From: Flavihumibacter profundi | Lineage (GTDB): Bacteria > Bacteroidota > Bacteroidia > Chitinophagales > Chitinophagaceae | Length of the DNA stretch: 64,000 nt | NCBI RefSeq assembly: GCF_020076305.1 | Contig: NZ_JAIQXE010000003.1 | Coordinates: forward strand, 682,001 to 746,000 | Reading direction: 5' to 3' | Part shown: positions 13,117-15,332 of the stretch, piece by piece | Numbering within the stretch: the first letter of the stretch is position 1 | Layout of the letters: each line of letters begins with the position of its first letter | Translations under genes and position numbers: made by a program | Notes under the pieces: model-generated | Seen by the model: the letters and a program-made list of their open reading frames with translations, nothing else | The model's database searches: none | What the model was told of the DNA's origin: nothing

Positions 13117-13584
13117 TTATGGCTGAACCATTACATTTCTATTCAGGCTTTCATCCAGGGAAATAAAGGTTTCCGTCCTTTCAATGCCTTTAATTTTTTG
13201 CAACTGGTCGTGTAAAACGTTTCGCAACTGGTTTATATCTTTACACACTATCTCAGCAAATATGCTGTAATTTCCAGTGGTATAATTCATGCGGACGATT
13301 TCCGGAATTTTTCCCAATTCACGTGCTACTGTATCATATAAGGAGCTCTTTTCCAGGTATATTCCTATAAAGGCGATAACATCATACCCTAATAATTTAA
13401 GGTCTACATTCAGGCGGGTACCTTTAACTACACCCATTTCCTGAAGTTTCTTGATCCGAACATGTATGGTTCCGCCAGAAACAAAAAGCTTTTTGCCAAG
13501 GTCAGCATAAGAAGTTTCGGCATTCTCCATCATTTCATGGATAATCTGGTAATCGAGTTTGTCTAAATTTAATTTGATAGCCAT
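13117..13584 (-). CDS. Lrp/AsnC family transcriptional regulator
   Basis: 155 residues, the normal family length. The N-terminal helix-turn-helix (about 8-52) opens with LDKLDYQIIHEMMENAE and contains the recognition helix SGGTIHVRIKKLQEMGVVKG. The C-terminal RAM domain (about 70-145) binds small effectors, usually amino acids, and drives oligomerisation; TTGNYSIFAEIV and the IKGIERTETFISL strand are typical. It is divergent from the tRNA-like RNA genes, with about 143 bases between its start and the first of them. Whether it controls those RNAs is unknown. Confidence 0.92.
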   Translation of the reverse strand: MAIKLNLDKLDYQIIHEMMENAETSYADLGKKLFVSGGTIHVRIKKLQEMGVVKGTRLNVDLKLLGYDVIAFIGIYLEKSSLYDTVARELGKIPEIVRMNYTTGNYSIFAEIVCKDINQLRNVLHDQLQKIKGIERTETFISLDESLNRNVMVQP

Positions 13585-13693
13585 TTTTTACTTCGATTTT
13601 TGATATTATCTACTTGAAGGTAGTATTTTTTGAACAATTTCGATAGTTTTTAATTTTTACTTGAATTATCTGCAAGAAATAGGCCGATCACCG

Positions 13694-13701
13694 TATATTT
13701 G
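13694..13701 (+). promoter_or_regulatory. -7 box in front of the first tRNA-like gene
   Basis: TATATTTG matches Bacteroidota TAnnTTTG and lies 34 bases before the first acceptor-stem base. No convincing -33 element was found at the usual spacing. The second RNA gene has a similar but shortened sequence, TATTTTG, at 13854-13860. Confidence 0.45.
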
Positions 13702-13727
13702 CTTTATCAAAGTTCTTAAGACATATA

Positions 13728-13848
13728 CTGTGGGATGATGAAATTTTCGGCAGACATGCCCTCTCGTCTCGGGGGTGGGGAAAATCGGATAAAACAGGTG
13801 AAAGCCTGGCTAACGACCCCGTGGAGGTTCGACTCCTCCTCCTACAGC
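13728..13848 (+). ncRNA. tRNA-like RNA, copy 1 (type II cloverleaf, abnormal anticodon loop)
   Basis: A full cloverleaf can be drawn. The acceptor TGTGGGA (13729-13735) pairs with TCCTACA (13840-13846), and an eighth pair C13728-G13847 is possible. The D stem is ATG/CAT with a leucine-like loop ending GGCAGA. The anticodon stem CCCTC/GGGGG (13759-13763, 13771-13775) has the loop UCGUCUC. The variable-arm stem is GGGG/CCCC (13777-13780, 13817-13820). The T arm GGAGG-TTCGACT-CCTCC is normal. Position 33 is C, not the near-universal U, and 37 is U, not a purine, so ordinary decoding is unlikely. The variable arm has a 36-nt insert with its own hairpin (CAGG/CCTG). CCA is not encoded. A tRNA-Leu-derived non-decoding RNA is my reading. 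Confidence 0.7.
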
Positions 13849-13876
13849 GACCGTATTTTGTTAATTGTTCTTTATA

Positions 13877-14067
13877 CTGTGGGGTGATGAAATCTTTGGC
13901 AGACATGCCCTCTCGTCTCGGGGGTGGGGAGTCCAGGATAAACGTAGCATAGAGCCGACTGGTATTCCAGTTCCGTAAGGAATCGGAATGAAGCCGACCA
14001 GGGTTGACCACTAATCTTTGTACTACAGCTAACTGCCCCGTGGAGGTTCGACTCCTCCCCCTACAGC
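13877..14067 (+). ncRNA. tRNA-like RNA, copy 2 (giant variable arm)
   Basis: This is a second copy about 30 bases after the first. The acceptor TGTGGGG (13878-13884) pairs with CCCTACA (14059-14065); pair 7-66 is G-C here and A-T in copy 1, a compensatory change. D stem, anticodon arm and T arm are retained, and the stretch from CAGACATG through the variable-arm GGGG is identical to copy 1. The anticodon loop is again UCGUCUC. The variable-arm stem GGGG/CCCC (13926-13929, 14036-14039) encloses a 106-nt insert with hairpins CTGG/CCAG (13959-13970) and TTCCG/CGGAA (13971-13988). Both inserts share GGATAAA near the 5' side and GCTAAC near the 3' side. The total of about 190 nt is far above a normal tRNA. 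The strong terminator after it suggests that both copies are expressed together. Confidence 0.7.
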
Positions 14068-14075
14068 TTTTTAAA

Positions 14076-14102
14076 ATCCCGCCCCGCTGGTGGGATTTTT
14101 TT
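14076..14102 (+). terminator. Rho-independent terminator of the tRNA-like pair
   Basis: The stem ATCCCGCC / GGTGGGAT is 8 bp with one G-T pair, the loop is CCGCT, and six T follow at once. It starts about 10 bases after the second tRNA-like gene and fits a single plus-strand transcript of both copies. Confidence 0.85.
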
Positions 14103-14191
14103 GTACCGCAAGCAACGATTGTGACCTGTAAGGATCGCAAAAAATTTGGTACACACTGTTTTTCTCATGTGTGTGTTTACAGCTGTTAGGT
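14103..14191 (+). other. Short structured segment between two terminators
   Basis: This stretch lies between the end of one plus-strand terminator and the stem of another. Beginning one base upstream, TGTACC (14102-14107) can pair with GGTACA (14148-14153). An inner CGAT/ATCG plus CCT/AGG hairpin lies between them, and ACACAC is opposite GTGTGT (14169-14174). No promoter and no credible reading frame were seen. It could be a third small RNA or only spacer. Confidence 0.25.
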
Positions 14192-14218
14192 AGCCCCTCT
14201 TTAAAGAGGGGCTTTTTT
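14192..14218 (+). terminator. Second plus-strand terminator
   Basis: A perfect 11-bp inverted repeat AGCCCCTCTTT / AAAGAGGGGCT runs into six T on the plus strand. The minus-strand glycosidase gene ends just beyond it at 14223, but on that strand no T tract follows, so its direction is plus. It has no protein-coding gene in front of it. Confidence 0.7.
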
Positions 14219-14222
14219 ATAC

Positions 14223-15332
14223 TCAGTTCTTTTTGCGTAAGTCCCGCCATGTCTGTAATACAGGCCTGGCCTTGTGGTTCTCGTCATATAACCCGATATC
14301 CCTCCAAAAAAGAAACAAAGGCTGATAGTCACCGGTGGATTTCAGCGTTTCAATTAAAGCATCGTAATCTGTATGACAAAACCATAGCAAAAACTGGCCT
14401 TTTCGTGTCCGCATCAAATCACCCAGTTTTTCCAGGTATCGATTCTGCCATTCAGGCCTGCCTTCCTTATGCAGATTGTATTCGGGCACATCCAGATTTT
14501 GGGCAATATATCCAGTCTCTGAAAAGCACCAGGGTTTTTCCGGAGAAAGGTCGAGCCAATGCTCAAAATACCCGGTCGGAAACAGGTCCGGATTGGTATT
14601 ACCACTTGCACTGCTGCTAACAGTAACATAAGGATAGGCACTCATCGCAACCCAATCGGTATAAGGCATTAATTCTTTTGCATTCTGGTAAGCCTTTGGT
14701 GCTTCACTGACCATTACACTCAGGAAGACCGGCGTTCCGGGATGGGATTTTTTCAATGCCGTATATACTGCCCTACAAAAAATCTTGTACCGCTGGAACT
14801 CAGTTTCATCCCAACTTTCAGAATTACTCTCCACTCCAAAATTGATCCAGGCCGGCGAAAACTCACCAACCAGGTAATTCACAAAATTAACATACGCTGT
14901 TATTACATCCGGATGGTCAAAAGGAAGTGATTCCCAATACTGTCGTATGGCGGAGGGAGTACCTTCATTATTCCGCCAGTAACCAACCTTTTTTTTCCGG
15001 CTGAGGTCCAAAGCAGACACACTCAAAAAAATAGCCTTGCCACTTGGTGTATTCTCTTTACGGAATTTAACCTCATTAACAAGTGATACTGGCATTGGCC
15101 GGTGATTAAATGCCTCGTCATAAGGAATTCCTTCATCAATATGGTGGGATACAAAATCACAATCACTTCCTATAAATGCATAAGCCTGCTGTTGATCGGC
15201 CAAAGAGTAAGCGGCCGGCCAGGGTGTTACCCCAAGCCTTACCGGCTCCGGAACCTGGTCCTTTTTTTTACTGCAAAACGGAAATAAAAGCCCTGTCAAA
15301 ACTGCGACTATGATAAATCTTTTTCTACACAT
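14223..15332 (-). CDS. Putative TIM-barrel glycoside hydrolase lipoprotein
   Basis: 369 residues. The signal has a lipobox ending LLFPFC (Cys about 20), followed by KKK, so it is an anchored envelope protein. The body looks like a (beta/alpha)8 clan GH-A-type glycosidase. A strand-4 acid candidate lies in WINFGVESNSE (about 160-170) and a strand-7 nucleophile candidate in PWCFSETGY (about 270). The order of barrel strands, ending with FLLWFCHTDYD, resembles endo-galactanase or cellulase-like folds. I cannot assign a numbered family with confidence. It is divergent from the GH95-like gene, and the two probably act on plant or exopolysaccharide material. Confidence 0.65.
   Translation of the reverse strand: MCRKRFIIVAVLTGLLFPFCSKKKDQVPEPVRLGVTPWPAAYSLADQQQAYAFIGSDCDFVSHHIDEGIPYDEAFNHRPMPVSLVNEVKFRKENTPSGKAIFLSVSALDLSRKKKVGYWRNNEGTPSAIRQYWESLPFDHPDVITAYVNFVNYLVGEFSPAWINFGVESNSESWDETEFQRYKIFCRAVYTALKKSHPGTPVFLSVMVSEAPKAYQNAKELMPYTDWVAMSAYPYVTVSSSASGNTNPDLFPTGYFEHWLDLSPEKPWCFSETGYIAQNLDVPEYNLHKEGRPEWQNRYLEKLGDLMRTRKGQFLLWFCHTDYDALIETLKSTGDYQPLFLFWRDIGLYDENHKARPVLQTWRDLRKKN

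Follow-up and report, generated by a model that had tools for sequence, protein, structure and literature searches.

A tRNA-like RNA family of Bacteroidota, proposed to be a non-decoding carrier for asparagine supply

Two tRNA-like RNAs in Flavihumibacter profundi

What kind of RNA is encoded by two adjacent tRNA-like sequences of Flavihumibacter profundi that tRNA-finding tools pass over, and what might it do? The preliminary description of this locus placed two genes of an unrecognised type in a protein-free gap of about 640 bases, ahead of one common terminator, and raised two possible roles, as a carrier of an aminoacyl group outside decoding or as a regulator imitating tRNA. Within the window, by which we mean the whole 64,000-nt stretch of DNA that was analysed, this layout holds: the copies lie at 13728-13848 and 13877-14067, 638 nt separate the neighbouring genes (13584, 14223), a single intrinsic-terminator-like hairpin lies 3' of copy 2, and the pair A7-T66 of copy 1 is indeed G7-C66 in copy 2. 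The features of the locus are the following.

13117..13584, minus strand: divergent gene for an Lrp/AsnC-family regulator (Pfam AsnC_trans_reg, E 1.2e-16)
13694-13701, plus strand: promoter-like TATATTTG, from the sequence, upstream of copy 1
13712-13717, plus strand: GTTCTT leader element, boxA-like, from the sequence, upstream of copy 1
13728..13848, plus strand: tRNA-like RNA copy 1, short form, 121 nt, a match of covariance model R1, with Y-1, U1-A72 acceptor, D, anticodon, variable and T arms, G73 (13847) and C74 (13848)
13764..13770, plus strand: copy 1 anticodon loop UCGUCUC, with C33, G34 U35 C36, U37 and C38, from sequence and position counts
13777..13820, plus strand: copy 1 variable arm, with GGGG/CCCC, bulge, UCG/CGA, internal loop GAUAAA/CUAA and a short hairpin (covarying helices 4 and 5)
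13877..14067, plus strand: tRNA-like RNA copy 2, the 191-nt long form, whose variable arm includes an extra domain of 86 nt
13913..13919, plus strand: copy 2 anticodon loop UCGUCUC, from sequence and position counts
13926..14039, plus strand: copy 2 variable arm, with GGGG/CCCC, bulge, CAG/CUG, internal loop GAUAAA/CUAA and the large extra domain, from alignment and covariation
14073..14102, plus strand: intrinsic-terminator-like hairpin with a T run, 3' of copy 2, from the sequence

A second leader stretch with such elements was noted at window 13867-13873. Further downstream, a strong second hairpin with a T run (AGCCCCTCTTTAAAGAGGGGCT) at window 14192-14218 abuts the convergent gene at 14223-15332 and is probably a two-way terminator.

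The standard tools for tRNAs and RNA families do not recognise either copy. ARAGORN found no tRNA in the 64,000-nt window, Rfam gave no match in it at gathering scores, and the 17 Rfam matches up to E 10 in 13585-14225 include neither tRNA (RF00005) nor tmRNA (RF00023). Ordinary tRNAs of this genome, used as a control, are found by an Rfam scan of this kind. The fast filters of Rfam missed a weak homologue in another genome (L290), which reached 40.8 bits against RF00005 once permissive filters were used. Compact relatives are recognised by ARAGORN, which labels 14 of 15 viral copies tRNA-Asp(gtc) and a 78-nt homologue from genome G127 tRNA-Asp(atc). The F. profundi genome itself has 35 tRNA matches, and ordinary tRNA-Asp(GTC), tRNA-Asn and tRNA-Glu are present among its 30 scanned tRNA loci (L033-L062).

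Several identities were considered and rejected. A tmRNA was ruled out by the lack of an RF00023 match and by a separate, normal tmRNA elsewhere in the genome, and tRNA-Sec, which an 8-bp acceptor might suggest, by position -1 being unpaired with G73 in 6 of 55 sequences. C74 was also dropped as a special mark, since ordinary tRNA genes of the genome keep it too: 27 of its 31 distinct tRNAs end in C74 with no encoded CCA (ARAGORN), and CCA is encoded in the genes for Asp, Ala, Ser and one Met.

A structured RNA family across several orders

Homologues are frequent among relatives. Of 59 genomes searched at the DNA level, F. profundi included, 36 gave a match. Besides F. profundi itself, these are 13 of 14 further genomes from its genus, 16 of 21 from elsewhere in its family and 6 of 23 from elsewhere in its order. 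We built a covariance model (R1, whose E-values are rough) from an alignment of 32 copies; the window copies, both among the model's own sequences, score 131.8 bits (E 3.4e-41, copy 1) and 171.4 bits (E 2.9e-54, copy 2). Over 395 Bacteroidota genomes, scores against R1 have a bimodal distribution, with matches of 110-200 nt at E<1e-22 in 40 genomes and the next best at 1.9e-17. A raw tally of 343/395 genomes was set aside, as it contains matches of about 85 nt (E 1e-17 to 1e-4) that look like ordinary tRNAs; of three that were checked, two are tRNA-Leu (G096, G151) and one is the homologue of G127. Missed by the threshold, G127 was added by hand, giving 41 positive genomes, and because its 78-nt homologue escaped in this way, other compact homologues may hide among the genomes counted as negative. 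The G127 homologue itself (L290:2038-2115) is of class-I size with the loop CUAUCUC, and no AsnC-like frame was seen beside it by eye.

A pattern scan of named genomes yielded at least 119 stretches, and at least 114 of these contain a member-range R1 match, two of them cut by contig ends. The genera among the matches listed include Chitinophaga, Niastella, Pedobacter, Mucilaginibacter, Hymenobacter, Pontibacter, Cyclobacterium, Algoriphagus, Flammeovirga, Marivirga, Fulvivirga, Emticicia and Lewinella, along with Saprospiraceae and two metagenome-assembled genomes (MAGs) labelled Flavobacteriales. The family extends over Chitinophagales, Sphingobacteriales, Cytophagales and Saprospirales, plus some viral contigs. 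Five tandem copies each occur in Flammeovirga (L180) and Lewinella (L177). The stretches from MAGs labelled Planctomycetota (L156), Thermoanaerobaculia (L188), Microbacterium (L252) and Dehalococcoidia (L256) are not matched by R1, and an actinobacterial locus (L233), at only 27.6 bits, was not confirmed as a member. Copies also occur on fifteen viral contigs of IMG/VR (L139-L153); one measures 150 nt, and the other 14 are compact, at 95-97 nt. The collections of annotated phage and plasmid records gave no match. Several viral copies adjoin tRNA-Met and tRNA-Leu genes.

For position counts we used 231 full-length bacterial copies (218 distinct sequences), which are the 240 model matches among the matches listed minus nine. 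Five of the nine were partial or cut by a locus end (L223:1-39, L175:3239-3332, L208:1-111, L228:1-52, L236:1-43) and four were weak (L194:4341-4479, L227:2306-2435, L233, L241:142-231).

A single compensatory change between two copies, as cited in the preliminary description, would be weak evidence for a structure, and the comparative evidence decides. Folded singly, the copies are only weakly better than shuffled sequences (z of -1.99 and -0.85 for copies 1 and 2), and a D arm is absent from both minimum-free-energy folds. Unguided RNAalifold on 32 homologues recovered the acceptor, anticodon, variable-arm and T helices, with 11 of 26 pairs doubly changed. The structure that we name here has 28 pairs, made up of acceptor 8 (including -1:73), D 3, anticodon 5, variable arm 4+3 and T 5, the two variable-arm helices flanking a four-base bulge. 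On the 32 copies it pairs 99.8% of cells and has double changes at 12 pairs, values neither of which is reached by any of 500 shuffles. A wider alignment, A3, fitted to the model and reaching other orders with 56 matches (55 distinct), gave 98.2% of cells paired, double changes at 17 of 28 pairs and 209 doubly changed cells; none of 500 shuffles reached these values and slid controls gave 3-5 pairs. One measure was weaker on A3, the number of further pair types, which 25 of 500 shuffles equalled.

Covariation therefore backs the type II cloverleaf of the earlier claim, with its long variable arm, and the family has D, anticodon and T arms together with G18G19 and TTCRA loops. The "normal" D arm stands as a 3-bp D stem of tRNA-Leu type. 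A covariance-model search for homologues had been put forward as the check: it brought further covarying pairs to light, and neither an absence of homologues nor decay without covariation, both looked for as refutation, was seen. Comparison has established the unrecognised type as well. Both copies belong to a large RNA family of Bacteroidota that is absent from Rfam, which confirms the first observation and makes it larger than reported. We found no account of this family in the open-licence PMC literature, a collection that misses most subscription papers, and the available parts of PMC5424206 and PMC8007984 do not mention it.

An internal loop of the variable arm, GAYAAA opposite CUAA, is nearly invariant in the alignment of 32 copies; it may be a motif of the UAA/GAN type or a protein site. 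In the window it lies at 13788-13793 with 13810-13813 and at 13937-13942 with 14029-14032. Beyond it lies a domain for which copy 2 has 86 nt, compared with 16 nt for copy 1. Short forms with no large extra domain run to 115-123 nt, viral forms to 95-97 nt, and a long variable arm is lacking from the 78-nt RNA of G127; since such forms exist, the extra domain and the long variable arm are dispensable.

Identity positions, the AsnC-type neighbour and leader motifs

The available part of PMC9976931 places aspartate identity mainly in G73, G34, U35, C36 and C38, in bacteria also in G1-C72 and G2-C71, and calls G1-C72 crucial for AspRS; it further states that amidation of Asp-tRNA-Asn is conferred by U1-A72 and is prevented in tRNA-Asp by G1-C72 together with U20a. 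Both window copies have all five of G73, G34, U35, C36 and C38. In the 231 bacterial copies among the matches listed, G73 and G2-C71 are each found in 231/231 and G34 in 209/231, while the AspRS element G1-C72 does not belong to the family pattern, its place being held by U1-A72 in 230/231. The viral copies have U1-A72, G2-C71 and G73 in 15/15. U35, C36 and C38 occur in 231/231 among the matches listed, a count partly built in by a search pattern that fixed those letters, and in 56/56 copies of A3, including 40 copies from 26 sources that did not contribute to the model. G10, which we take to be a further AspRS element, is present in only 31/231 copies among the matches listed.

The anticodon loop departs from that of a decoding tRNA. 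Among the matches listed, position 37 is a pyrimidine in 226/231 copies and a purine in only 5/231, and U33 is kept in 190/231 and missing in 41/231, the window copies having C33 and U37. The ordinary tRNAs of the F. profundi genome combine U33 with a purine at 37 in 31/31. Positions 33 and 37 hence look wrong for decoding. The body of the RNA follows tRNA-Leu in its D loop, U44 and GU linker, as judged by eye against the genome's own tRNA-Leu genes, and the genome's own tRNA-Asn has U1-A72.

The most constant neighbour of the RNA is a regulator gene. In F. profundi it lies 144 nt upstream of copy 1 on the opposite strand (13117-13584). Its product scores 162 bits against the NCBIfam model for AsnC (NF008384), below the cut-off of 227, with the next best model at 64.5; among solved structures the closest is AsnC itself (PDB 2cg4, E 3.3e-33; next 4.2e-20). 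By sequence similarity, the window regulator is nearest to E. coli AsnC, a protein that answers to asparagine and controls the divergent asnA. Clustering of the neighbours at 114 loci among the matches listed placed an Lrp/AsnC gene at 64 of them, the next families reaching 10, and all 64 genes lie upstream and divergent at a median distance of 151.5 nt. By tblastn, an AsnC-type gene was divergent and within 400 nt in 82 of 137 loci among the matches listed and absent as neighbour in 55 of 137, and no such gene took any other placement within 3 kb at these 137 loci. For the tblastn count a locus needed 650 nt or more of upstream sequence, which left out 11 of 148 loci; the loci partly overlap in species.

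In Cyclobacterium, Algoriphagus and their relatives the loci (L118, L119, L124, L157, L200, L201, L212, L220, L227, L229) have no AsnC neighbour and share others, which appear by eye to be pseudouridine-synthase-like and PLP-enzyme-like. Where loci of this type have two copies, the copies lie hundreds of bases apart.

Two leader motifs recur among the matches listed: TAnnTTTG in 102 of 148 first-copy leaders (shuffle mean 8.3) and GTTCTT in 38 of 148 (shuffle mean 1.8). We regard TAnnTTTG as resembling Bacteroidota promoters and GTTCTT as resembling the boxA of rRNA leaders, suggesting strong, antiterminated transcription.

Asparagine genes and the proposed carrier role

AsnB, defined as a match to NF006949 at E<=1e-130, occurs in 64 of the 395 genomes (62 over the cut-off) and AsnA in 20. 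For a closer comparison we hand-picked 74 genomes, comprising the 41 positives, 23 in-class negatives and 10 out-of-class negatives. AsnB is present in 0/41 positives and 17/23 in-class negatives, one of the latter (G108) lying just under the cut-off, and AsnA in 4/41 positives (G217, G327, G221, G127). GatB, from which alone we read the presence of GatCAB, is found in all 41 positives and all 10 out-of-class negatives, and in 3 of the 23 in-class negatives. Within the class, the distribution of the RNA follows GatB and opposes AsnB; the Fisher p values of 2.8e-13 (GatB) and 1.9e-10 (AsnB) are overstated, the genomes being related and the in-class negatives hand-picked. AsnRS occurs in 41/41 and GlnRS in 34/41 positives, and because both synthetases are present, GatCAB has no other known need in 34/41. 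Of the 36 tested in-class genomes that have AsnRS, GlnRS and GatB, 34 carry the RNA, and the other two are the genomes with GatB joined to AspRS described below.

Other asparagine-forming enzymes need consideration. Many positives hold paralogues over the cut-off of TIGR01536, and these might make asparagine; the two of F. profundi score 433 and 429 bits against that model and 274 and 227 bits against the AsnB equivalog model, whose cut-off is 499. Five positives (G035, G205, G245, G304, G372) have no AsnA, AsnB or TIGR01536 protein over the cut-off.

The three in-class negatives with GatB each have a background of their own. One, G096, is without GlnRS and therefore needs GatCAB for Gln-tRNA. 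In the others, G209 and G257 (f24), which are without AsnA, AsnB and the RNA, GatB lies in one long frame: in G209 (L293:796-4128) it encodes a GatB-AspRS protein of 1110 aa (Pfam) beside a GatA-like frame, the latter identified by eye, and the AspRS domain encoded in G257 (L297:10906-12666) is 92% identical to that of G209. R1 has no match within the 20-kb stretches that surround these two genes. GatB-AspRS is perhaps a one-piece asparagine-forming enzyme acting on tRNA-Asn, and its occurrence in genomes without AsnA and AsnB is an independent sign that AspRS plus GatCAB supplies asparagine in this phylum. Out of class, 7 of 10 negatives are without GlnRS, and the remaining three (G076, G179, G243) have AsnRS, GlnRS and GatB with no AsnA, AsnB or member-range R1 match, so that GatCAB can exist there without the RNA. 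In the family to which F. profundi belongs, two genomes (G074, G170) are without GatB, AsnA, AsnB and a member-range R1 match, as if RNA and GatCAB had been lost together; G074 is also without a TIGR01536 protein over the cut-off.

The AspRS sequences add a further observation. A histidine in the motif RDHG of AspRS goes with charging of tRNA-Asn. In the AspRS of one positive genome, G027, a small sample, the motif reads RKFG where 1efw, which we take to be the Thermus enzyme, has RDLG and 4rmf, presumably the mycobacterial one, has RDHG; 4rmf, named Aspartate--tRNA(Asp/Asn) ligase, thus has H at the position of F in G027. The closest solved relative of the G027 enzyme, 6wom, has RDKG, and the GatB-AspRS of G209 has RDHG.

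We consider it likely that this RNA is a non-decoding tRNA and a dedicated carrier, charged with aspartate, amidated to asparagine and serving asparagine supply. The aminoacyl-carrier role, one of two that had been suggested at the outset, is supported by the AspRS/GatCAB identity elements, the lost decoding features, the AsnC neighbour and the GatB/AsnB distribution. We infer a course from transcription through charging and amidation to asparagine release, under regulation. The RNA would be processed like a tRNA, and ordinary AspRS would charge it with aspartate via G73, G34-U35-C36 and C38. GatCAB would recognise U1-A72 and amidate Asp-RNA to Asn-RNA, and the anticodon loop, with no fixed U33 and a pyrimidine at 37, would keep the RNA off the ribosome, where an Asn-tRNA bearing a GUC anticodon would cause Asn to be inserted at Asp codons. 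Asparagine would be set free by deacylation, AsnRS would then load it on tRNA-Asn, and the divergent AsnC-type regulator could adjust transcription of the RNA to asparagine. On balance we also favour a broader picture, in which a tRNA out of the genetic code is a metabolic cofactor that replaces AsnB across much of Bacteroidota, is dosed by AsnC, and has phage miniatures supporting host asparagine.

Other explanations have to be weighed against these data. Once charged with Asp and amidated to Asn, the RNA could instead give its asparagine to cell wall, lipid or peptide, or its charging state could signal in an asparagine-sensing circuit with AsnC. The same identity marks and AsnC linkage would fit, non-decoding tRNAs in cell-wall synthesis are known, and copies on viral contigs agree with such a role; we nonetheless judge it unlikely, as it does not by itself explain the absence of AsnB in 41/41 positives, and the neighbour family next in frequency to AsnC is at just 10 of 114 loci (among the matches listed, clusters only). 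It is also conceivable that GatCAB and a non-discriminating AspRS make asparagine on ordinary tRNA-Asn, the tRNA-like RNA being unrelated and having another job. According to the available part of PMC4206432, the tRNA-Asn route has been shown for Bdellovibrio, and 18 genera have AsnRS, GlnRS and GatCAB with no synthetase for asparagine, Bacteroidetes being among the named clades and tRNA-Asn the possible carrier. The U1-A72 of the genome's own tRNA-Asn, the two f24 genomes whose GatB is joined to an RDHG-bearing AspRS with no RNA, and the three out-of-class genomes with the enzymes and no RNA speak for the same route. Against this explanation, the RNA is present in 34 of the 36 tested in-class genomes with AsnRS, GlnRS and GatB, the single AspRS examined from a positive genome is without the RDHG histidine, and the elements for AspRS and GatCAB would have to occur on the RNA by chance; we regard it as quite improbable.

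A regulatory tRNA mimic, uncharged and binding AspRS, AsnRS or a leader RNA, would suit the long and variable extra domain, its conserved internal loop and the adjoining regulator gene. That domain is dispensable, however, while the charging and amidation elements are kept, and the RNA retains C74 just as the genome's ordinary tRNA genes do, which makes such a mimic very improbable. Finally, ARAGORN's labels for 14/15 viral copies and the 78-nt homologue, tRNA-Asp(gtc) and tRNA-Asp(atc), might point to an ordinary extra decoding tRNA-Asp or to pseudo-tRNA remnants. Strong covariation (17 of 28 pairs doubly changed) excludes remnants; a decoding tRNA-Asp sits badly with a purine 37 in only 5/231 copies and a missing U33 in 41/231 (among the matches listed), and with the normal tRNA-Asp(GTC) of the F. 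profundi genome, and we give this pair of readings next to no weight.

If the proposed carrier is real, the missing step of asparagine biosynthesis is provided, in bacteria that are now assigned tRNA-Asn or unknown enzymes, by an RNA family conserved across several orders, and our data offer a carrier other than tRNA-Asn for the Bacteroidetes covered by the available part of the PMC4206432 survey. It would be a living case of RNA as an amino-acid carrier in metabolism, not decoding, would account for GatCAB in genomes that possess AsnRS as well as GlnRS, and would mean that predictions of pathways and auxotrophy need correcting in many environmental Bacteroidota.

Among known systems, the tRNA-Asn of organisms with a non-discriminating AspRS and GatCAB (Deinococcus, Thermus, Bdellovibrio; available part of PMC4206432) is similar in the two-step chemistry proposed here and in U1-A72. 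The gene background, AsnRS, GlnRS and GatCAB without AsnA and AsnB, is also alike. Unlike tRNA-Asn, the RNA has a GUC-type loop with the C38 of tRNA-Asp, no decoding loop, a class II body with a large variable arm, and an AsnC-type gene alongside. Class II tRNA-Leu shares, by eye, its D-loop sequence, A14/A15, U44, GU linker, long variable arm and T arm, but the RNA differs from it in G73 (in place of A73), in U1-A72, in the GUC-type loop and in the 114-nt variable arm of copy 2 with its internal loop and extra domain. With tmRNA the family has in common tRNA-like ends and a large insert, which here sits in the variable arm while the anticodon arm is kept. The staphylococcal non-decoding tRNA-Gly carries its amino acid outside the ribosome, for cell-wall synthesis, and differs in amino acid, elements and pathway. 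In E. coli, asnC is divergent from the asparagine synthetase A gene; here too an AsnC-type gene is divergent from a proposed asparagine-supply gene, but the partner is an RNA gene and not asparagine synthetase A.
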